Positions 51,007 through 62,586 of a DNA stretch of 64,000 nt are shown in pieces. A model generated the notes under the pieces. The model was not told where the DNA came from. It saw nothing but the letters and a program-made list of their open reading frames with translations, and did no database searches. Within the stretch, counting starts at the first letter, position 1, and every line of letters starts with the position of its first letter. Location: NCBI GenBank assembly GCA_945883495.1, contig CAMCXS010000002.1, positions 1 to 64,000 of the forward strand, written 5' to 3'. The DNA is from Akkermansia muciniphila. Its GTDB lineage: Bacteria; Verrucomicrobiota; Verrucomicrobiia; Verrucomicrobiales; DEV007. A program made the translations under genes and the position numbers.

Positions 51007-52335
51007 CTAGGAGTCCCCAATCCTCTCGTTGGCTTCGCCAATGATCCGCACAGCCTCCCGGACAACGTCCTCCGTGGCGCACAGCGGCAACACCACGATC
51101 ACAGAGTTCCCGATCGACCGCGCCGCCAGCCCGAGGCGCCAACACTCCCGAGTGACTCGCCGTCCTTGGATGCGACCGTAATTCGTCTGCGCGGTTGTCC
51201 CCGGCTCCTCCACCACTTCCACGGCGGCGGCGAACCCGCGTTGCCGCACTTCCTTGATCCCGGGGCGTTGCGCCAATTCGGCGAGCGACTCCGTCAAAGC
51301 CGCGATCGGCCCGGCCAACCGGCTGACGACTTGTTCCTCCGCGAACACGTCCAGACAAGCCAAGCCCCCAGCACAAGCCACGGCATGTCCGGCGTAGGAA
51401 TGCCCGTAGAGAAAGTTCTGCTCGATCGATTCCGCCCGCGCGAATGGCGCAAAGACACGGTCCGTAACCACGGTGGCGGACAGCGGCCCGACGCCGCCGG
51501 AAAGCGCCTTGCCCAAAACGAGAATGTCCGCCGGACAGGCTTCGTGCTCAAAGCCGAACATCTTCCCGGTCCGCCCAAATCCGGTGAAAACCTCATCGTG
51601 CACGAAAAGCCCCCCGTGCCGGTCGCACCACTCGCGGCAACGCGTCAACGTTCCGTCGGGCCAAGGCACCATCGCGGCCGCTCCGGCGATGACCGGTTCG
51701 AGAATCAGGCCCGCAATCGATTCCGCTCCCTCGATCTCCTCCAACTGCCCTGGGTCATCGAGCCAAACCACCGGATAGCCGCTCTGCCCGAGAAAGGCTT
51801 TGAACGCCGCCAACCCGGTGACGCTGTTCGCCCCCAGGGAATCGCCGTGGTATGACCGCCGAAACGCCACGAAACGGCGTCGCTCCGGGTGGCCGCTGAG
51901 GATTTGCCACTGCAACGCCATCCGCAAGGCGGCCTCGATCCCGTTGGACCCGCTCTCGGAAAAGAAGACCCGGCGGAATCCCCACTTTCCGAGATGTTCC
52001 TCGATGAGCCGCCGCGCCAAAAGAATCCCCGGCGGATGCGAAAACCCGAGGAAGGAACTGTGGGCGAATCGCTCCAACTGCTCCCGCACGGCCGCCACGA
52101 TTTTCGGGTGACCGTGACCGTGGACGTTGCACCAGATAGAGGCGTTGCCGTCGATCAATCGGCGCCCCTCGGCATCGAACAGGTAGGCCCCCTCCCCCCG
52201 GGCGATCACCGGAATCTCAAACTCCGGGGAGAGCCACTCCTGCAAATAGGTGAACGGGTGCCAGAGAAACTCCCGGTCCCACTGGCGCAACTCCGACGGC
52301 CTTGCGCCATAACCCAAATCGACCGGAATCTCCAT
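51007..52335 (-). CDS. bioA: BioA-type class III aminotransferase
   Basis: A 442-residue PLP-dependent aminotransferase. The pattern DGNASIWCNVHGHGHP, SHPPGILLARRLIEE, FFSESGSNGIEAALRMALQ, FRRSYHGDSLGANSV and VLGKALSGGVGPLS (PLP lysine, ~281) closely follows adenosylmethionine-8-amino-7-oxononanoate aminotransferase of biotin synthesis. No bioB, bioF or bioD gene is nearby. Instead it starts 3 bases after the ATP-grasp-like gene in the methyltransferase operon, so a role on another amino compound is possible. Confidence 0.75.
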   Translation of the reverse strand: MEIPVDLGYGARPSELRQWDREFLWHPFTYLQEWLSPEFEIPVIARGEGAYLFDAEGRRLIDGNASIWCNVHGHGHPKIVAAVREQLERFAHSSFLGFSHPPGILLARRLIEEHLGKWGFRRVFFSESGSNGIEAALRMALQWQILSGHPERRRFVAFRRSYHGDSLGANSVTGLAAFKAFLGQSGYPVVWLDDPGQLEEIEGAESIAGLILEPVIAGAAAMVPWPDGTLTRCREWCDRHGGLFVHDEVFTGFGRTGKMFGFEHEACPADILVLGKALSGGVGPLSATVVTDRVFAPFARAESIEQNFLYGHSYAGHAVACAGGLACLDVFAEEQVVSRLAGPIAALTESLAELAQRPGIKEVRQRGFAAAVEVVEEPGTTAQTNYGRIQGRRVTRECWRLGLAARSIGNSVIVVLPLCATEDVVREAVRIIGEANERIGDS

Positions 52336-52338
52336 GCC

Positions 52339-53640
52339 TCAACGCTCCCAACAAGGGACAATGGTCGCCTCGGTCATGCCGTGGATCTTCTTTTTGTCCG
52401 GGGGACAGACCACCGCCAATACGCCTTGGAGCGCGGCGTTCCCGTCGTCCACTAGATAATAAGGCGAAAGCCGCACCACGCCCGGTTCCTCCAACACAGT
52501 CCCTCCGTCGGTGAAGTAGCGATTCGGCACCGGCGCCGAGGCGGCGAATTCTTGGAGGATGTGCGGGTTGCGCGGAAACGCCGTCAGCGCCTCGTCAAGG
52601 CGGTTGGCCCACTCCGGTTTCGAGAGGTCGTGCCCGATGTGGACGCCGCGCGAGCCCCAGGCGTTGCTCGCGAACCCGCTCACCTTGATCACCAGGCGGC
52701 GTTGCTCCTGAGAGAATTCTTTGAGTTCGTTCCAGTCCCAAATCTCCAACTTGGGATACACGCCATGCGGCGGAAGCGGCGACGGATCGAGCACCCAGCC
52801 GAACGGAATGAGCCGGTCAAGCACGTCCGCATGCGCCTCACCCAATTCCCGCCGCCAACGCGGATGCAAAAACGGATCGCGGTAGAGCGCCAGCAGCATC
52901 TTCTCCTCGAAAAACGCCTTGGGCGGCCCGGTCAAGGTGAGCCGGCCTTCCCCAGCCAACGCGAAAAGCCGCCGCGCCGCGTCTCCCAACTCCTCATCCC
53001 ACAGCTCGAAGAACCGGTACACCGTCCGTCCTTCCAACGCGTCCATGTCCGCGACCGTCAGTTCTGGCTCCAACAACGTCTGCGCCCCCGTCCGGCCTGA
53101 GGCATGGCGTAGCATCCATTCCGTCTCCGGCCGGTAATCGCTCGATTCGCGGGAAAACACGACCGCCATCTGGCGTTCCACGAAGACCTCGCCAAAAAGC
53201 CGCTTGCCGCGAACCACATCGAACCCCAACTCGCCGTAGACCAAGTTGAGGAAGTCGATCATCCCAATCCCGCCCGGCACGCCATCGATCTCCGCGATGC
53301 GAAATCCGTCGTCGGTCCAAAGCAGATCCGGCCGAAGCACCATCGGCAGTTGATTCCGGACGGCCGGGGAGTCGTGCAAGCGGAGCAGCCAATCCGGTTT
53401 GCCCTGATCGAGCAGTGCCCGGAAAAAGGCCAACTCCGTCTCCTGGCTGTAGTAAAAGCCGGTCGCCACCTCCAAAAACCGCACCAGCGCCGCCCCGATC
53501 CGCCGCAGTTCCGACACCTGGGACGCCGTGAGCGCGAACGGCTCGGGCCCTGCACGCCACGTCTTGCCCCGGAACAAACCTTCCGCGGGAAGGCGTGCAT
53601 CCAAGGTGCGCAAAACCAAATCCGGAGACGCCGGTTTCAT
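52339..53640 (-). CDS. ATP-grasp-like protein
   Basis: A 433-residue protein with ATP-grasp-like signals in its last third: RRLVIKVSGFASNAWGSRGVHIG (~303-325), PHILQEFAAS (~350) and VRLSPYYLVDDG (~395). The N-terminal part contains LRPDLLWTDDGFRIAEIDGVPGGIG (~100), reminiscent of glutathionylspermidine-synthetase-like ligases. ATP-grasp enzymes join a carboxylate to an amine or thiol. It starts 4 bases after the methyltransferase stop and 3 bases before the aminotransferase start, so the three probably act in one pathway. Family assignment is tentative. Confidence 0.6.
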   Translation of the reverse strand: MKPASPDLVLRTLDARLPAEGLFRGKTWRAGPEPFALTASQVSELRRIGAALVRFLEVATGFYYSQETELAFFRALLDQGKPDWLLRLHDSPAVRNQLPMVLRPDLLWTDDGFRIAEIDGVPGGIGMIDFLNLVYGELGFDVVRGKRLFGEVFVERQMAVVFSRESSDYRPETEWMLRHASGRTGAQTLLEPELTVADMDALEGRTVYRFFELWDEELGDAARRLFALAGEGRLTLTGPPKAFFEEKMLLALYRDPFLHPRWRRELGEAHADVLDRLIPFGWVLDPSPLPPHGVYPKLEIWDWNELKEFSQEQRRLVIKVSGFASNAWGSRGVHIGHDLSKPEWANRLDEALTAFPRNPHILQEFAASAPVPNRYFTDGGTVLEEPGVVRLSPYYLVDDGNAALQGVLAVVCPPDKKKIHGMTEATIVPCWER

Positions 53641-53644
53641 CCGT

Positions 53645-54391
53645 TCATTCGGTAGCTAGGCGTTCCCATACGCTCGCCTGGGCCACGGTCCACTGGAACT
53701 TGCGATGGTGCTCGCGAATCAGGAACGGCATTTCAAAGAGGCGACGCAAGGCAAATGGTCCCTCCAAGTGTTTCTTCAGCAGATCGAGCGTCGAGCCGTG
53801 CGGCCAGTTCGCAATCGGCGTGAACTCCTCCAACCAGGTGCACGGCGTCGTCAAAACGAGCTGCCCCGTCGGCCTCACCAAACTCGGCAACCGGCTCAAG
53901 AACCGCTCCGGTTCCGGCAACCGGCAGACCAAGTTCGCCGCGTGGACGAGATCGAAGGTCCCCAACGCCGGGTCCAAGTCCATCGCGTCCCCCCGCGCAA
54001 ACCGCACCCGTTCCGGCGCCACGCCTTCCGGCCGCATCGCCGTCAGCGTCGAGTAGGACGCCGCTTCTTCCAAGCGCCGGTACTCCAAGCACCCGTCCAC
54101 CCGCATCGACTCCGCCGCGCTGACGAAGGCGTCGGAGTAATCGATCCCCACCACCTCGCCGCAGCGGCGCGACAGCTCAAAGCTCGATCGCCCCACCGCG
54201 CAGCCGATGTCCAAGGCCCGGGCCCCCGCCGGAACCGCGTTCCAAGCGAACGTCTCCGTCACCGTGCGCACCGGGAACCCCAAGGCGCCCTGCGGACCGA
54301 GGTCCCACGGGAGAATTTCCTCGTCCGCGCCGTAGTGGAACAGGAGGTACTCGTCGACGAGCTTGCGGGATTCGTAAGGATTCAAACTCAT
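53645..54391 (-). CDS. OvoA C-terminal-type (4-mercaptohistidine N1-) methyltransferase
   Basis: A 248-residue SAM methyltransferase. The start [20 protein letters not shown], then [21 protein letters not shown], motif [39 protein letters not shown] and [18 protein letters not shown] correspond to the C-terminal methyltransferase domain of OvoA (TIGR04345 type), which N-methylates 4-mercaptohistidine in ovothiol A synthesis. The sulfoxide synthase half of OvoA is absent from the window, so this is a stand-alone version. Its ATG overlaps the DUF1552 stop (ATGA) and its stop lies 4 bases from the ATP-grasp start. Confidence 0.8.
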
Positions 54392-55704
54392 GCGGCCCCC
54401 AGCTGGAGCGGCCCTCCCTCGCAATGGCTCGCGGTGCCGAAGGTTTCAATCGGATGCCCCATGGAATGCGCCAAGCTGAGCCAAAGCCGGTTGTGCGTCA
54501 CTTTGTCGAACTTCAGGCTACGCCCGGTGACGAAGCCGTGGGCCTTGCCGCCGATGAGGACAAACGGGATATCCTCCAAGGTGTGCGAGTTCCCCTTGCC
54601 GAGTTCATTGAGCCAGACCACGAGGGTGTGATCGAGCATCGAACCATCCCCGCCGGGTTCTCGGGTTTCCGCCAAGCGCTTCACCAGATACGCCAGCTCG
54701 CCGCAGAACCATTCGTTGATTTGGATGAGCTGCTCCACCGCCTTCTTGTTATCGTCCGGTTCGTGGGAGAGCCCGTGGTGGCCTTCCTCAATCCCCAGCC
54801 AGGACATCCGAGCCTGGCCCACGGAACGCATGTACTGCAAGGTGGCGATCCGCGCCATGTCGTTGGCCATCGCGTTCACCAAGAGATCGATCTGCATCCG
54901 GCTGATTTGGGGCGTGTTTTCGTTCACCAGCTCGATTTCAGGATCGATGTCCGGCATCGGATGCCCCTCCTTCGGCTTCTGCTTGGCCGCTTGATCGAGC
55001 TGCTTCTCCATGTCGCGCACCAAGGAAAGATGCTGGTCCAGCAGCGCCCGATCCTCCGCTCCAAGCCGTTTGGAAACCTTGGTCAGTTCCTCGCGGACAT
55101 CATCAAGCACGCTGGAAACTGTTTCGCGGTCCTTCATTTGCCCGTAGAGCTTGCGGATCATCTGCGCCGGATCGTCCACCGGAGCGACCGGTTGATTCGG
55201 GCCAGCATAGCTCATTCGGGTCCAGGGATCGGCGCGGTTCGGAACAGCCACGCCGAATTCCAGGGACCCGAAACGCGTCCGCGTCTCCTCACGGCCTTGT
55301 AGGAAATTTTTCAGTTCCTGATCGATCGAAATGCCCTTGGCCCAACCCGCGGGCGTGTCTGAACCACCTTGGATGTTCCCCGGGAACAACTCGGTGCCCG
55401 TCAGCAAACAGCTCATCCCGCGCATGTGCCGGTCGCCGTCGCCGCCGATCTTGTTGTGCACGCCGTGAAGCACCAACAGCTGATCCTTAAACGGCGTCAA
55501 CGGCTGCAAAATGCGCTTCAGTTCGAACTCGGGTCCCTCCGCCTCCGGCCAAAACTCCCAGGGGATCGTCCCGTTCGGCGAGAACATGAAGATGATCCGC
55601 TGCCGGTTCACCTTGGCGCCGGAGCAACCCGGCAACCCGGTCAAAAACGGCAGGACTGCGGTGGAAAGGCCGAGTTGTTGCAGGAAATGGCGTCGCGTCT
55701 TCAT
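54388..55704 (-). CDS. DUF1552 protein, Tat-exported
   Basis: A 438-residue DUF1552 protein with a twin-arginine signal ([19 protein letters not shown]) and a possible lipobox (LPGC, ~26). The domain shows [45 protein letters not shown] and a late [17 protein letters not shown]. The metal-like histidines and DUF1501-like layout suggest an alkaline-phosphatase-fold protein. It overlaps the DUF1592 gene and the methyltransferase gene by 4 bases each. DUF1552/DUF1592 pairs are typical of PVC bacteria and have no established function. Confidence 0.9.
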
Positions 55705-58013
55705 CGGTTGGCGGTCAGGGCTGCGGGAGCAATGGGCGGCAAGGCTTGAGTCACGGCGATCTCCACCAGCAAGTCGCGAATCTTGAACCCGGACCCGGTG
55801 AACGACTTCAACAGTCGCTCCACGGTGTCCGGACCATACGCTTCCCCCGGTTGTTTGGCCACGTGATCAAAGAGTTGCGCGATGAAACTGGCGTGCGCGG
55901 CGGGACTATTCGCCGCATAGGTCGCCAAGTCACGCGCCCCGGAGAGCTTTACTTCCGCGCCGTTGCTGTCGATGAATTCGCCCGCGGAAACGATCGGTCG
56001 ATTCTTCTCCTGGGTGCGCCAGCGTCCGATCGCATCGAAGTTTTCCAAGCTGAAGCCGAGCGGATTGATGGTCGCGTGACACCCCATGCAACTCTGATTG
56101 CGCGTCAGTTCGGTGACTTTCTCCCGCATGGTCAGATTGGGATCGAACCGGCTGTCCTCAAACTTGATCGCTTCCGGAGGCGGCTTGAGGCGCATACCGA
56201 CGATGTGCCGGGTCAAAAACACGCCCCGGTGAATCGGGGAGGTATTGTCGTGATACGCGAACGACGTCAGCAGGTAAGGATGCGTCACCACTCCGGCCCG
56301 CCCCTGCGCCGGCAGGGCGACCCGCTGAAACTCCCCAGCCGGAGCCTGCGTCCCGTAGATTTCCGCGAGCCGCTGGTTCAAATAGAGCCCATCGTCGAGC
56401 AGCAACCGCCGGTAATCTGAGCTGTCGCTCCAGACCACGTCCTCCAGGAACAAATCGAGCGAGGTTCGCAAATCCGCCAAGACCGCCGGGCTAAACTCCG
56501 GAAACCGCTTTTGATCCTTGGACACCTGGGCCGCCCGGTCCAATTCCAGCCAGTGCTCAAAGAAGCCGGTCAGCTTGGCTCGAGCCCGGGCATCGTAGAG
56601 CATCCGCCAAGCCTCCTTCGCGACTTGCTCCCGCGTCGAAAGCTGCTTTTTCCGCGCCGCATCGCGCAGACGCTGGTCCGGGATCGAATCCCACAACGCC
56701 AACGCCAGCCGCGAGGCCACCGCCCAATCCCCCTCGCCCTCCGCGACCGCTGGGTAGAGAAACTGCGGTGAGGTCAGCGTGAAGAGCACCAACCGTTTCA
56801 GCGACGGTTCCAGTGGCGCGCCTTTCGGCAAGCGTTGGTCCAAGAACGCCACCCGCTCCGCCTCCGGGAACTCACAACGCCAAGCCCGTTCCACGAAGTC
56901 CTTGGCAAACGAGCGGATCTTTTCTTCACGCACCGCCGGGGCATCCTCCTTTTTCACCCGGGCTAGGTCGTCCAAATGCTCGCCCACGTAATCGGCGGCT
57001 TCGACGGCAGCGTCCGTGACCGCCTCGAACCACTCGCGCGACACCGCGGTGCCCCGTTCATACCCCGCGCTCCGGTCATCCGCCGGGAAAGGCCGCTTCA
57101 CCACCAGGCTCTCGTGCGTCCAATGCGGCGTCAGCACGCGGCTGGGCACCGGTTCGAGCACGCCGTTCGGCTGTTTCCAGGAGAGCCGGATCGAGGCCTT
57201 GGCTTCCTTGAACTTGAAGAACTCCAGCCGGATCGGATACATCCGCCCCCCCACCAAGAAGATGCGCCCAGATTCCTTGCGCTCCTCGTTGTTGCCTGCC
57301 ACCAAGGCATCGATGAGGTAGCCCCCTTCCCACTCGTGATTGTTCACCCACAACATGGCGCCGTTGCGGGTTTCGAGGACGAATTCATAGTCGCCCGTCG
57401 CCGGGGCAATAATCCCGCCTTCCCAACGGATCGAAAACTCATCCTTGGCGGGGAACTGGGCCCCTTCCGGAAGCACCGGCCACTCCGTGCCGAAGTCGAA
57501 TTGGACGTTCGGATCGACGCGTTTGAATTTGTCCTTCCCGTTCAGCTCCTTATCGCCATTGAAGCGGCGGCCGAAATACTGCCCGGTCAAACCACGCTCT
57601 TTCCCAGGTAGTTGCCCCGCATTGCCCCGGAAACTGGCCACCAAATCCGCGACTGAGGTCCGGAATTGCGGAACGGTGAGCCGCGCCAACTCCTCTCGAG
57701 CCGGTTCTTTCATCCGGGCTGCGGGCGAATAGAACGCGTCGTAAATATATTCCGCCACCGCCTTGGCGTCCTCGCCCACGCAAGCCCCCACGTTGTCCTC
57801 CGGCATGGTCCGCTCGATTTTGCCCGCCAACGCGTTCAGCGAAAGCTTGCCGTGCAACGGATCGTCCGCCTTGCCTTCCACGCCCTCTCCGTTCGGGCCG
57901 TGACACTCCGCGCATAGCTTCCGGTAAATCGCTTCGCCCTGGGGGGGCGCGCTGGCCACGGCCGTCGCGCACACCAAAACCCCAGCGAATACGATGATTG
58001 CTCTCCACTCCAT
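55701..58013 (-). CDS. Planctomycete-type cytochrome with PA14 and DUF1592/1588/1585 domains
   Basis: A 770-residue exported protein. Signal peptide, then a cytochrome c domain with CAECH (C34, C37, H38), a PA14 carbohydrate-binding-like domain (~140-300; [38 protein letters not shown]), then the DUF1592, DUF1588 and DUF1585 modules. The DUF1588 region ends [22 protein letters not shown], a second heme-binding CMGCH. It probably acts in the periplasm on polysaccharide with electron transfer. It is the first gene of the operon; the ATG at 58013 is chosen because the 16 upstream codons precede the signal peptide. 91 bases separate it from the divergent TetR gene. Confidence 0.88.
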
Positions 58014-58104
58014 GGCGCCAGTTCCGACCTCCCCAGCCCACAAATCGTTGAAAATCGTCACAGAGATTCCCGCTCCGAGTCCGTCTCCACGTCGTAAACA
58101 ACCA

Positions 58105-58761
58105 ATGATGGAACTCCGCGACCGACTGATTCAGGCTTACATCCACCATGTCCTCGAGGAGGGGCGCCCTCCCGCCTCGGTCTTCAAATTCTGCCGCTCC
58201 CTCGAGATCGCCGAGAAGGATTTTTACCAACTATTCTCCTCGTTCCCCGCGTTGGAAGGGCAAGTTTGGGCGTCGTGGGTGGAGCAAACGACCGCCGCCA
58301 TCACGGCCTCGCCCGAGTGGCCCAACTTCAATGCCCGACAGCGCATGCTCACCTTCTTCTTCGCGTTCTTTGAGCGCGCCGTCGAGCATCGTTCCTTCCT
58401 CCTCGCCCGGTTCCCCTGCCCCAAACAGCGCCTCACTGGCGAAGCGCCCGCAGTTGGCGCGTTGAAACGCCGCTTCGAACAGTTCGCCGAAAGCACCTTG
58501 CAACATGGGGTCGATTCCGGGGAAATCGCCTCCCGCGGTCCGCTGAACCGGGTCTACGCACCGACGTTCACCGAGCTCTTCCTCAGCGCCATCGACTTCC
58601 ATGTCCGGGACGAAAGCCCTGGCTTTGAGCGCACCGATGCCTATGTCGAAAAGACCACCTTGCTTGCGTTCGATCTGTTGAGCCGCTCGGCGATCGAGTC
58701 CGCCATCGACTTGGTCCGGTTTGTCACTCAACGCAGCACGTCCGCGGAAGGAGCCCGATGA
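58105..58761 (+). CDS. TetR-like regulator
   Basis: A 218-residue protein with an N-terminal helix-turn-helix (RDRLIQAYIHHVLEEGR, SLEIAEKDFYQLFSSF, ~5-45) and a helical C-terminal ligand domain, in the style of TetR regulators found beside ABC1 kinases. Its stop overlaps the start of the kinase gene (ATGA), so the pair is translationally coupled. Two successive ATGs at 58105 and 58108 could serve as start. The ligand is unknown. Confidence 0.75.
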   Translation: MMELRDRLIQAYIHHVLEEGRPPASVFKFCRSLEIAEKDFYQLFSSFPALEGQVWASWVEQTTAAITASPEWPNFNARQRMLTFFFAFFERAVEHRSFLLARFPCPKQRLTGEAPAVGALKRRFEQFAESTLQHGVDSGEIASRGPLNRVYAPTFTELFLSAIDFHVRDESPGFERTDAYVEKTTLLAFDLLSRSAIESAIDLVRFVTQRSTSAEGAR

Positions 58762-60065
58762 GCGATCCCGGCGCGCCGTCGATTCCCAGCCACAAACTGG
58801 CACGCGTCGCCAGCCTCGCGGGCGCCGGAGCCCAGGTTGGAGCGAACTATCTGAAGCACTTTAGCCGCAAGGTCATTACGGGCGAAGCGCCGGAAGACGA
58901 TCTCCATTCCGCGAACGCCGACGCTGTGTATCGCAGCTTTTCCACGCTCAAAGGGGGGCCGCTCAAAATGGCGCAGATGTTGAGCATCGATCGCAACCTG
59001 CTCCCCAAGGCCTACCGGGACAAATTCGCGTTGGCGCAATACTCGGCCCCGCCGCTCTCCTATCCACTTGTCGCCAAAACCTTCCGGCAGGAGCTCGGCT
59101 GCGAGCCCACGGAGCTGTTCGACGAATTCTGTCCCAAGGCGGCTCACGGAGCCTCGATTGGCCAAGTTCACCGGGCAACAAAGAACGGCCGCGCCTATGC
59201 GGTGAAGATTCAATATCCAGGCGTGGCCACCAGCGTCCGCAGCGACTTGGCGTTGGTCAAACCAATCGCCTTGCAAATGCTCGGCCTGAAATCCGCGGAT
59301 ATCGAAGAGTATTTTCAGGAGATCCAAGAGCGGCTTCTGGAAGAAACCGATTATGATCTGGAGCTGCAACGCTCCATGGATCTCTCCAAACGGTCCGCGC
59401 ACCTCCCGGGTATTCGCTTTCCGGAGTATTTCCCGCAATGGTCGTCCCGTCGCGTCCTCACCATGGAGTGGATCGACGGCCTCCCGCTCGATCGCTTCGC
59501 CGATCAGGAACCGAGCCAAGAGATCCGCGACCGCGTCGGCCAAGCCATTTGGGACTTCTATCACTTCCAGGTGCATACTTTGCACCAATTCCACGCGGAT
59601 CCGCATCCCGGGAACTTTCTGGTACTTCCGGATGCCCAAGTCGCCGTCCTTGATTTCGGTTGTACGAAGTCAATCACCCCGGAGTTTCAACGCACCTATT
59701 TTGAACTGCTCCGGCCGAGTGTGCTCCACGACGAAGCCCGCTTCGCCGAGGCCCTCACCGCCCTCGGCGTCCTCCAAACCACCGACGCCCCGCGCCTCCG
59801 CCAAGTCCTGCTCGAAAAAGCAAAAGAAGGCAGCCTCTTGTTGTCTCGCCCGTTCCACGTCGAGCAGTTCGATTTCGGCGATGCCTCCTATATGGAAAGC
59901 GTCTTTGCCCTCGGCGAGCGAAACCGGCAAGATCCCGACCTCCTGGAAATCGGTCCGACCCGTGGTCCTGCCTCCGCGCTTTATCTGAACCGGGCCTACT
60001 TCGGGCTGTATTCCCTCATGGGCCGGCTCCGTGCCCGCATCCGGGCCCGGATTCCGGAGGCCTGA
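58758..60065 (+). CDS. ABC1/AarF (UbiB) family atypical kinase
   Basis: A 435-residue ABC1-family protein. Landmarks are the N-terminal KMAQMLS element (~72, the K-x-G-Q motif with Ala for Gly), the ASIGQVHRA loop (~131), the VKI lysine (~148), EETDYDLELQ (~194), HADPHPGNF (~280) and LDFG (~297). ABC1 proteins support lipid or quinone biology as ATPases. There is no C-terminal membrane anchor. The coupled TetR-type gene points to regulation by a small hydrophobic ligand. Confidence 0.88.
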   Translation: MSDPGAPSIPSHKLARVASLAGAGAQVGANYLKHFSRKVITGEAPEDDLHSANADAVYRSFSTLKGGPLKMAQMLSIDRNLLPKAYRDKFALAQYSAPPLSYPLVAKTFRQELGCEPTELFDEFCPKAAHGASIGQVHRATKNGRAYAVKIQYPGVATSVRSDLALVKPIALQMLGLKSADIEEYFQEIQERLLEETDYDLELQRSMDLSKRSAHLPGIRFPEYFPQWSSRRVLTMEWIDGLPLDRFADQEPSQEIRDRVGQAIWDFYHFQVHTLHQFHADPHPGNFLVLPDAQVAVLDFGCTKSITPEFQRTYFELLRPSVLHDEARFAEALTALGVLQTTDAPRLRQVLLEKAKEGSLLLSRPFHVEQFDFGDASYMESVFALGERNRQDPDLLEIGPTRGPASALYLNRAYFGLYSLMGRLRARIRARIPEA

Positions 60066-60124
60066 GCCGGCCGTAAGATCGAATCGTCTTGGAATTCGGT
60101 GAGAGTCATGCGAGAGGACTCGAC

Positions 60125-60691
60125 ATGCCCCTTCCACCGGAAGCCATTGCGCTGATCGCGGTCCTCGCCCTTGGGACCATTTGGCTCATCGCCGTCTTCA
60201 ACCGTTGCGTGGCCCTGCGCAACAAAGTCCGCGAAGCCTGGAGCGGGATCGACGTCCAGCTCAAGCGGCGCCACGACCTCGTGCCCGCTCTGGTGGAAAC
60301 CGTGAAAGGCTACCAGTCGCATGAGGCCACCACCTTGGCCAATGTGGTCGCCTCGCGAAACGCCGCCGTCCAGGCCCACGGCGCCGCTCAAGCCGGTCCG
60401 GCCGAAGCCGGGCTCTCCTCGCAGCTGCGCTCCTTGTTCGCGATTGCGGAGGCCTATCCGCAACTGAAGGCGGACGCGAACTTTCGCCAACTCAGCGCGC
60501 AGCTCGTGGAGATCGAAGATCAGTTGCAATATGCCCGCCGTTATCACAACGGCGCGGTGCGCGACTTCAACAACCTGATCCAGAGCTTCCCCAACAACCT
60601 CGTCTCTGGCCTTCTACAGTTCCACGAGCAAGCGTTCTTCGAAGTCGAAGAAGCCACGGAACGTTCCGCCCCCAAAATCCAACTCGGATGA
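60125..60691 (+). CDS. lemA: LemA-family protein
   Basis: A 188-residue membrane-anchored protein: one N-terminal helix (~6-25), then the LemA helical bundle (NRCVALRNKVREAWSGIDVQLKRRHDLVPALVETVKGY, ARRYHNGAVRDFNNLIQSFPNN). It overlaps the downstream DUF2207 gene by 4 bases (ATGA), a conserved LemA-DUF2207 pair. Its molecular role is unknown; the ATG at 60125 is preferred to a GTG or ATG at 60089. Confidence 0.9.
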   Translation: MPLPPEAIALIAVLALGTIWLIAVFNRCVALRNKVREAWSGIDVQLKRRHDLVPALVETVKGYQSHEATTLANVVASRNAAVQAHGAAQAGPAEAGLSSQLRSLFAIAEAYPQLKADANFRQLSAQLVEIEDQLQYARRYHNGAVRDFNNLIQSFPNNLVSGLLQFHEQAFFEVEEATERSAPKIQLG

Positions 60692-62586
60692 TCACCGCCC
60701 TTCGATTCCTCCTCCTGGCGTGGCTCGTTATCGCTCCGGCACTTGCCCAGCAAGAACGCATCCTGTCCTTCCACAGCGACATCGCGATCGATGTCTCCGG
60801 AGAACTCACCGTGACCGAAACCATTCGGGTCGTGGCGGCCGGAAACGCGATTCAGCGCGGCATCTACCGCGACTTCCCCACCCTCTACCAAGGCACCGGC
60901 GGCCTGCGGCTCAAGGTTCCCTTTGAAGTCGTCTCCGTGAAGCGCGACGGCCAAACCGAACCGTTCGCCAACGAGGCTCTCTCCAATGGACGCCGCCTTC
61001 GCATCGGCCGCGCCGAGGTCCTTCTCCCGTCTGGCGAGCACACCTATGAGATCACGTATCGCACCTCGGAACAGCTGGGTCGATTCGCGGAACACGACGA
61101 ACTCTATTGGAACGTCACCGGCAACGGCTGGGACTTCGTCATCGAAAAGGCCTCGGCCCGAGTCACCCTTCCCCAGGGAGCCAAAGTCCTGAGCCGCGAG
61201 GGCTACACCGGTCCTCAGGGCGCGAAAGAACGCGATTACCGTTCTTCCGAGCCGAGCCCCGGCGTGGCCGCCTTCGAAACCACCGCTCCCCTGGCCCCAC
61301 GGAACGGCTTCACCATCGTGGTGACTTGGCCCAAGGGAGTGCTCGCTCCGCAAGAGCCGAACAATCTCACAATGCGCTATTTGCGGGACAATCCTGGAAT
61401 CATCGGAGGAATCATCGGATTGGTTGTCTTATTTACCTACTATATCCTTACCTGGCTGGCGGTGGGCAAGGATCCGGAAAAGGGGACCATCATTCCGCGC
61501 TACGAACCGCCGAAGGGCTTTTCTCCCGCCGCCGTCCGCTATTTGCGACGCATGAGCTTTGACGATGCCGCATTTACCGCCGCCATCATCAGTCTAGCGG
61601 CCAAGGGCGCCTTGACCATTGACAAAGATGGCCGGGTTTTTGTGTTGAGGGCATCCGCGGATTCCGCCGCCGCCTCGTTGAGTCCGGACGAACGGCAGCT
61701 CGTCTCCAAGCTGTTCAAGAACGGAAACTCCCTGCGGCTGCAGCAAACGAATCACGTGCTTCTCACCGAAGCCAAACAAGCACTCCAATCAAGCCTGAGT
61801 GTCACCCTGGAGACCCAATACTTCCTGCGAAACACCGGATTCTGGGTTCTCGGCCTGCTCGTCAGCGCACTACCCATCCTAGTCACGGCACTAGGAAGCC
61901 AGCTCCACCCCGTCGCCGCTTTCTTGATCTTCTGGCTCAGCGGATGGTCGGTTGGCGTAGCCGTGCTGATCTCCATGGTGATCTCTTGTTTCACCGGACG
62001 AAGAATCCTGCAGGGTTTGTTCCTCAGCGCGTTTGCCGCCCCGTTTTTGGCAGGCGAAGTCTTCGGCCTCTCTATGCTGTGGATCACTGCTGGTGGGTGG
62101 GTGGTCTCGATCTTTGTCATCACCATCGCCTGCCACGCGGCTTTCTATCATCTCCTCAAACGCCCCACCGCCATGGGCCGGCAAACGCTCGATGAGATTG
62201 AAGGCTTCCGGGAATACCTCACCGTCGCCGAGGAGGACCGCCTGAATCTCCTCAACCCGCCCGAACAAACACCCCAGCTCTTCGAGCGATTCCTCCCTTA
62301 CGCCTTCGCGCTCGACGCGGAACAGCAATGGTCCGAGTCATTCGACGCCGCGCTCACTGCAGCCGCTCGAGTCGAGGGGCGGCCGGGCACGACGTACCGC
62401 CCCAACTGGTATACCGCCGGAGTGGGAGCCGGAGCCTTCTCCGCCGCCGCCTTCAGCAATCAGCTCAGCTCCGCCTTCTCCAGCGCCGTTTCCTCCGCCT
62501 CCACCGCCCCCGGATCGTCCAGCGGCTCCAGCGGAGGCGGATCATCAGGAGGCGGTGGCGGTGGGGGCGGAGGCGGTGGCTGGTAA
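60688..62586 (+). CDS. DUF2207 membrane protein with polyglycine tail
   Basis: A 632-residue membrane protein: signal peptide (~1-20), a periplasmic DUF2207 beta domain (GIYRDFPTLYQ, VLLPSGEHTYEITYRT, ELYWNVTGNGWDF), a helix near 245-260, a cytoplasmic region, further helices at ~390-480, and a tail ending in a Ser/Gly run with eleven consecutive glycines before the final Trp. Such glycine tails recur in DUF2207/TPM proteins. It is coupled to lemA and probably works with it in the envelope. Confidence 0.88.
   Translation: MITALRFLLLAWLVIAPALAQQERILSFHSDIAIDVSGELTVTETIRVVAAGNAIQRGIYRDFPTLYQGTGGLRLKVPFEVVSVKRDGQTEPFANEALSNGRRLRIGRAEVLLPSGEHTYEITYRTSEQLGRFAEHDELYWNVTGNGWDFVIEKASARVTLPQGAKVLSREGYTGPQGAKERDYRSSEPSPGVAAFETTAPLAPRNGFTIVVTWPKGVLAPQEPNNLTMRYLRDNPGIIGGIIGLVVLFTYYILTWLAVGKDPEKGTIIPRYEPPKGFSPAAVRYLRRMSFDDAAFTAAIISLAAKGALTIDKDGRVFVLRASADSAAASLSPDERQLVSKLFKNGNSLRLQQTNHVLLTEAKQALQSSLSVTLETQYFLRNTGFWVLGLLVSALPILVTALGSQLHPVAAFLIFWLSGWSVGVAVLISMVISCFTGRRILQGLFLSAFAAPFLAGEVFGLSMLWITAGGWVVSIFVITIACHAAFYHLLKRPTAMGRQTLDEIEGFREYLTVAEEDRLNLLNPPEQTPQLFERFLPYAFALDAEQQWSESFDAALTAAARVEGRPGTTYRPNWYTAGVGAGAFSAAAFSNQLSSAFSSAVSSASTAPGSSSGSSGGGSSGGGGGGGGGGGW

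Follow-up and report, generated by a model that had tools for sequence, protein, structure and literature searches.

Five genes on the minus strand of a 64,000-nucleotide stretch of an Akkermansia muciniphila genome (assembly GCA_945883495.1, contig CAMCXS010000002.1, positions 1 to 64,000; the whole stretch is called the window here) form a tightly coupled, conserved unit, which is genus-wide but not phylum-wide. They encode an exported PSD/DUF1592-type protein, a DUF1552 protein, a stand-alone methyltransferase (MT) homologous to OvoM and OvsM, a ligase with a predicted ATP-grasp fold and an orthologue of the aminotransferase BioA. We tentatively favour the explanation that this is a genus-specific composite operon, in which the aminotransferase stays BioA, the ligase and the MT act on one compound, and the exported pair has just the promoter in common with them. 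Each component is of a known kind, and the literature that was searched contains no description of the combination.

Conservation of the unit in the genus

The five genes run from position 58013 to 51007. Each extends from an ATG to a stop codon, and they are separated by gaps of -4, -4, +4 and +3 bases, just as an earlier reading of the sequence (the original prediction) had placed them. At the first junction gene 2 starts inside the end of gene 1, in a 4-base ATGA overlap. Judging from this spacing, the five genes would share one transcript. When the operon was scanned for promoters and terminators, the yield was no better than that from shuffled sequence.

The source genome (G000) is a 6.46-Mb draft in 206 contigs and is 96% complete. 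The sample includes sequenced genomes from two further species of the genus, with which G000 was compared (loci L132 and L133; one of the genomes is G389). The identical five-gene order is present in both, equally tight, with junctions of -4/+10/-4/+3 and -4/+10/-1/+3, so the coupled and conserved unit that had been proposed is upheld within the genus. Protein identity among the three species is 73-86% at a synonymous divergence (dS) of about 1, and all five genes are under purifying selection, with ratios of non-synonymous to synonymous divergence (dN/dS) of 0.07-0.17. Gene order diverges between G000 and the sister species directly after the aminotransferase and, on the upstream side, at a distance of a few genes from the unit. 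The five genes were not found together in any more distant genome among those examined.

Proteins encoded by the unit

Pfam and NCBIfam agree with the labels first given to four of the genes, namely the DUF1592-PA14 cytochrome, the DUF1552 protein, the OvoA C-terminal-type methyltransferase and the BioA-type aminotransferase. The remaining one, gene 4 (52339..53640, minus strand, 433 amino acids), had been called ATP-grasp-like; this is invisible to sequence search, since searches of Pfam, NCBIfam and PDB gave no family match, and is right by the predicted fold. Weak matches to H-NS were judged spurious. The AlphaFold model of gene 4 has a predicted local distance difference test score (pLDDT) of 93.5. 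Its best Foldseek matches are glutathione synthetase (9e-13) and Cp1B (2e-11), and the VIA-align Z scores are 24.7 for YjfC, 24.6 for homoglutathione synthetase, 24.5 for Cp1B and 24.4 for YgiC, the score of 24.7 spanning 344 residues at 4.1 A. The whole chain, as modelled, has the fold of a circularly permuted ATP-grasp amide ligase. The fungal protein Cp1B has been reported to join a dicarboxylate to an amino acid (PMC12568646).

Residues R103, D105, E117, D119, E245, K247 and K319 of gene 4 are invariant in 54 sequences, and a DKKxxHGM motif (415-422) is kept. The pattern of motifs suggests that the invariant residues would serve substrate, metal and ATP; the R-x-D, the E-x-D and two invariant lysines would, by motif, fit the active site of the fold in glutathione synthetase, YjfC/YgiC, Cp1B and GspS. 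Position 325, a third metal-ligand candidate whose equivalence is taken from the motifs, is glutamate in 43 of the 54 sequences and serine or glutamine in the genus. Despite the shared fold, identity to the known permuted ATP-grasp ligases is about 9-16%, with no match at the level of sequence.

Of 312 good genomes sampled from the phylum, 108 carry the ligase gene, nearly all of them of the same class, and outside the genus the proteins are 35-46% identical. The gene's usual place in the class is behind ruvA or prfB: among 61 ligase loci, ruvA is near in 23 and prfB in 11; an aminotransferase gene is near the ligase only in the genus, and an MT gene in the genus and one other genus. In 80 named loci the ligase occurs with an MT or an aminotransferase only in the record of Verrucomicrobia bacterium isolate REEB427. 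The operon ligase groups in the tree with family f3 (support of 93 in the Shimodaira-Hasegawa-like approximate likelihood ratio test, SH-aLRT). An origin in f3 is not shown by this, since monophyly of its own family, f1, is not rejected (approximately unbiased, AU, test p 0.41).

A second, degenerate ligase homologue lies directly downstream of ruvA in G000 (L357 7833-9038, contig C17) and in G389 (L362 4787-5935, contig C29). Its open reading frame (ORF) is intact, and it is without the R-x-D, E-x-D-PGG, lysine and DKKxxHGM motifs. The ruvA-linked copy has thus lost the catalytic motifs, and it is therefore the operon copy which carries the catalytic-type residues. Short degenerate copies of the ligase also occur in genomes of family f3 (L358-L361, L363-L366).

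Gene 3 (53645..54391, minus strand, 248 amino acids) is a stand-alone homologue of the OvoM/OvsM family of S-adenosylmethionine (SAM) methyltransferases. It scores 171.1 bits against TIGR04345 (ovoA_Cterm), barely over the curated cut-off of 170, and its closest PDB sequences are OvsM (9bxh, 2e-49) and OvoM (9bxl, 3e-40), followed by OvoA (8khq). Homology to OvoM and OvsM extends over the full length, with a conserved SAM site and conserved aromatic and arginine positions. The SAM-site residues and Y6, Y15, Y20, W186, W196 and R226 are common to the C-terminal domains of OvoA, which suggests a substrate of the imidazole type.

The MT differs from these relatives in several respects. In the tree the MTs of the class form a branch separate from the OvoA domains, and gene 3 falls on it. 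No sulfoxide synthase partner was found in G000: models of the OvoA N-terminal region and of EgtB gave no match above cut-off in this genome, the SenA/OvsA model not being among those searched. The sub-threshold matches mostly fall in the FGE-sulfatase part. Dozens of stretches with an FGE-sulfatase domain are present in G000, some of them repeated inside ORFs of 1695-2462 amino acids (contigs C4 and C128). The MT is a widespread stand-alone gene, which is present together with a full OvoA in some genomes; a literature search found nothing, under the terms used, on a stand-alone MT alongside OvoA. A role in defence was also considered and set aside, as PADLOC shows just a methyltransferase-domain overlap of the MT with mad2. 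A LemA-DUF2207 gene pair is found at 60089-62586 of the window, a few kb from the MT. A published account of Proteiniphilum, in which genes for LemA and DUF2207 adjoin one for OvoA, judged them unlinked to it (PMC12631010).

The usual partner of the MT in the class is, unlike that of OvoM and OvsM, a NicX-like protein of about 400 amino acids. In loci centred on the NicX-like gene, the MT accompanies it in 20 of 28, and a short-chain dehydrogenase is present in 13. The class-wide module consists of the short-chain dehydrogenase, the NicX/M29-fold protein and then the OvoM-like MT (L338-L354, L157-L171). The NicX-like proteins are 53-80% identical across families and have no sequence match in Pfam, NCBIfam or PDB. 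In a Foldseek search with the model (pLDDT 93.6), NicX, a 2,5-dihydroxypyridine dioxygenase, was the sole significant match (6e-14). In G000 the NicX-like gene (L335, contig C47, 8396-9574; 72% identity) stands next to the dehydrogenase without an MT, and the MT has therefore probably moved into the operon of the window. Adjacency of MT and ligase recurs in G188, G200 and G444, genomes of another family.

Gene 5 (51007..52335, minus strand, 442 amino acids) is a fast-diverged class-III aminotransferase. It belongs to Aminotran_3, and BioA is the nearest family in all searches (TIGR00508; PDB 6zhk, 3dod). None of the three genus members has a further BioA-like gene at E<1e-40. In a tree with Bacillus subtilis BioA as outgroup, gene 5 nests among the BioA proteins of its family, and monophyly of f1 with gene 5 included is not rejected (AU p 0.53). 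By these sequence comparisons gene 5 is orthologous to the bioA of the class, which in relatives is a solitary gene. Transfer from elsewhere in the phylum was considered and rejected, as no donor closer than 47% was present in 388 genomes. D247, R255, K276 and R406 are kept in gene 5, and K276, D247 and R406 are invariant in the alignment. From knowledge of BioA structures, we take K276 to be the catalytic lysine, D247 the aspartate that contacts pyridoxal phosphate (PLP) and R406 the arginine that binds 7-keto-8-aminopelargonate (KAPA).

The other biotin genes are scattered elsewhere in G000, with bioB at 383 bits, bioD at 153 bits and bioF at 389 bits. Next to bioD (L356 2814-6282, contig C15) are three genes that by eye resemble a circularly permuted ATP-grasp, alpha-E and transglutaminase-like cluster. 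The original prediction had placed gene 5 in a small-molecule pathway with genes 3 and 4 and had named, as a finding that would count against this, a sole BioA whose complete biotin pathway is encoded elsewhere. The aminotransferase is the only BioA in G000, and bioB, bioD and bioF lie elsewhere in the genome, which counts against the prediction in the way it had named.

Typical BioA proteins differ from gene 5 in sequence. Identity to B. subtilis BioA is 37-44% for all 21 relatives and 32-33% for the three genus members, and eight relatives that were tested against TIGR00508 score 438-484 bits, all above its cut-off of 405. The altered invariant sites in the genus include T405A and P407A/S, beside the KAPA arginine R406, together with L404A; the SGS motif carries the changes T131N and A132G. 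A smaller burst is seen in the ligase, with a genus stem of 1.41 and 5 of 71 class-invariant columns altered, and the MT shows no burst on the genus stem, with 0 of 34 such columns changed. The bursts in the aminotransferase and the ligase mean that two of the five genes were re-shaped on one branch and then constrained.

The exported pair precedes the three enzymes. Gene 1 (55701..58013, minus strand, 770 amino acids; orthologues in L132 and L133) has a cytochrome c domain with a CXXCH motif, PA14 and DUF1592/1588/1585, matched in Pfam and NCBIfam as PSD4, PSCyt3, PA14 and cytochrome CBB3. Gene 2 (54388..55704, minus strand, 438 amino acids) matches HXXSHH (DUF1552), and its N-terminus, as read from the sequence alone, appears twin-arginine-like or lipoprotein-like (RRHFLQQLG...GCSG). 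PSD/DUF1592-DUF1552 pairs are presumably familiar from Planctomycetota and Verrucomicrobiota; genes 1 and 2 have the same domain content but are here coupled to cytoplasmic enzymes. We know of no function for a PSD/DUF1592 or a DUF1552 protein, and a literature search found no paper that treats DUF1552 and DUF1592 together. The G000 genome contains 15 PSCyt3 (DUF1588) matches, two of them less than 9 kb apart on contig C2 (56007-56300 and 64687-64989).

A composite operon and its alternatives

In the composite operon that we tentatively favour, single-copy genes scattered across the class would have been gathered behind one promoter, where they adjoin an exported PSD-DUF1552 pair and a regulator of the TetR family. 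The ligase would use ATP to phosphorylate a carboxylate and would join the acyl-phosphate to an amine, as in glutathione synthetase, YjfC/YgiC and Cp1B. The MT would methylate a nitrogen of imidazole type; the simplest assumption is that this nitrogen belongs to the substrate or the product of the ligase. A functional link between the two is proposed because they share the operon here and are adjacent in G188, G200 and G444; very roughly, and by our own estimate, the probability of one such adjacency arising by chance among about 40 genera is about 1-2%. Gene 5, in which R406 is kept, would still aminate KAPA for biotin. Its pocket would be remodelled, for example for a changed amino donor, and it would share the operon for expression, not for the same product. 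The exported pair would be a standard PSD-DUF1552 module which shares the promoter only.

Several observations weigh against this explanation. The three genus members score 361, 357 and 357 bits against TIGR00508, under its cut-off, and the bioF of G000 is likewise below its own curated cut-off of 426. In the aminotransferase, 33 of 131 class-invariant columns are changed in all three genus members, against 0-9 in controls. The stem of the aminotransferase measures 3.9 substitutions per site, compared with tips near 0.4. Change on this scale would seem to exceed what a mere donor switch would need, and the ligase burst alongside that of the aminotransferase suggests joint re-tooling. Outside the genus, the adjacency of MT and ligase is confined to a single genus. 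The roles given to these two proteins are predictions that define them by fold and family and not by substrate.

The main rival, which we regard as possible and as clearly the less probable of the two, is one new pathway specific to the genus. A co-opted bioA orthologue would make an amine, the ligase would couple this to a carboxylate and the MT would finish the product; the 7,8-diaminopelargonate (DAPA) step of biotin synthesis would then fall to an unrecognised enzyme, or the genus would need external biotin precursors. Consistent with co-option are the long stems and class-invariant changes of the aminotransferase and the ligase, with none in the MT and all now under purifying selection, and the position of the aminotransferase changes beside the KAPA arginine and in the SGS motif. 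In G000 and G389 the ruvA-linked ligase copy has no catalytic motifs, so that the operon copy carries the function, and translational coupling extends across all five genes. Against this, bioB, bioF and bioD are retained with no other BioA, for which a loss of BioA activity does not readily account, and the three genes are not together beyond the genus.

The same distribution bears on the small-molecule enzyme set of the original prediction. An aminotransferase, an amide-ligase fold and an N-methyltransferase homologue are indeed present; the expectation that the three cytoplasmic genes would be neighbours in diverse genomes fails, as they are together in the genus only, the MT and the ligase being found together in one further genus. 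The three enzymes might still act in one pathway of three steps. For the suggested exported or periplasm-acting product, there is no evidence beyond the gene arrangement.

Somewhat less probable than co-option is an operon of convenience, in which a rearrangement put the genes on one transcript, so that expression is shared and biochemistry is not. Each component is found alone elsewhere, the biotin genes are scattered in G000 and no second genus has the full set, all as would be expected. However, the order and the near-zero spacing are kept in three species at a dS of about 1 while the flanks have been rearranged, MT and ligase are adjacent in another family as well, and the aminotransferase and the ligase have accelerated in parallel.

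Unlikely, and marginally more so than an operon of convenience, is a scheme in which the only bioA, a displaced glutathione-synthetase-like ligase and the OvoM-like MT make an N-methylated amide for an exported PSD-DUF1552 redox module, with biotin made independently of BioA. A variant route to ovothiol or ovoselenol (5-thio- or 5-selenohistidine), in which the MT would act as OvoM/OvsM, is very improbable: the MT is nearest to OvsM and OvoM in PDB and has non-SAM residues in common with the OvoA methyltransferase domains, but the genome's matches to OvoA N-terminal/EgtB-type proteins are far under cut-off, the class MTs branch apart from the OvoA domains and sit beside full OvoA in some genomes. 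The lack of any match above cut-off to a synthase of OvoA or EgtB type means that ovothiol is not made here by a known route.

Flanking genes and wider significance

A divergent intergenic region of 91 bp (58014..58104) separates gene 1 from a TetR-family regulator (TetR_C_23; 58105..58761, plus strand, likely start ATG at 58105 or 58108). The 10-mer CGTTGAAAAT within it is kept in the three species, and the region is a candidate promoter/operator. The TetR gene adjoins the operon in all three genus species and is a candidate regulator. Coupled to it is an ABC1/UbiB-type kinase-like gene (58758..60065, plus strand), a conserved neighbour which is transcribed away from the operon and is probably outside it. 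Both divergent genes are retained upstream across the genus species.

Downstream, a sixth ORF of G000 (50968-49511) begins 38 bp after gene 5. It encodes a protein of 485 amino acids (MESPVLSTNQKALEINLDESKYGTFAEIGAGQEVARWFFRVGG...), which neither Pfam nor NCBIfam matches to a family. We rejected it as a sixth operon gene, as it is without a family and is missing from the sister-species loci, and because of this absence the unit is taken to end at the aminotransferase. In the sister species the aminotransferase is followed by a Trypsin/PDZ (DegP-like) gene (L132 11651-13303, L133 11481-13130). In two genomes of family f3 (L196, L204), homologues of this gene and of the next one are separated from bioA by no more than a few genes.

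Should gene 5 have remained a BioA, it would illustrate the extent to which this enzyme can drift, and biotin synthesis is tied to a ligase-methyltransferase pair. If it has not, a vitamin enzyme has been re-tooled in one genus, and the change can be dated to one branch. Either way, the locus points to the ATP-grasp-fold ligase and the NicX-like protein, two uncharacterised families that are widely conserved in the class and may outweigh the operon itself in value.

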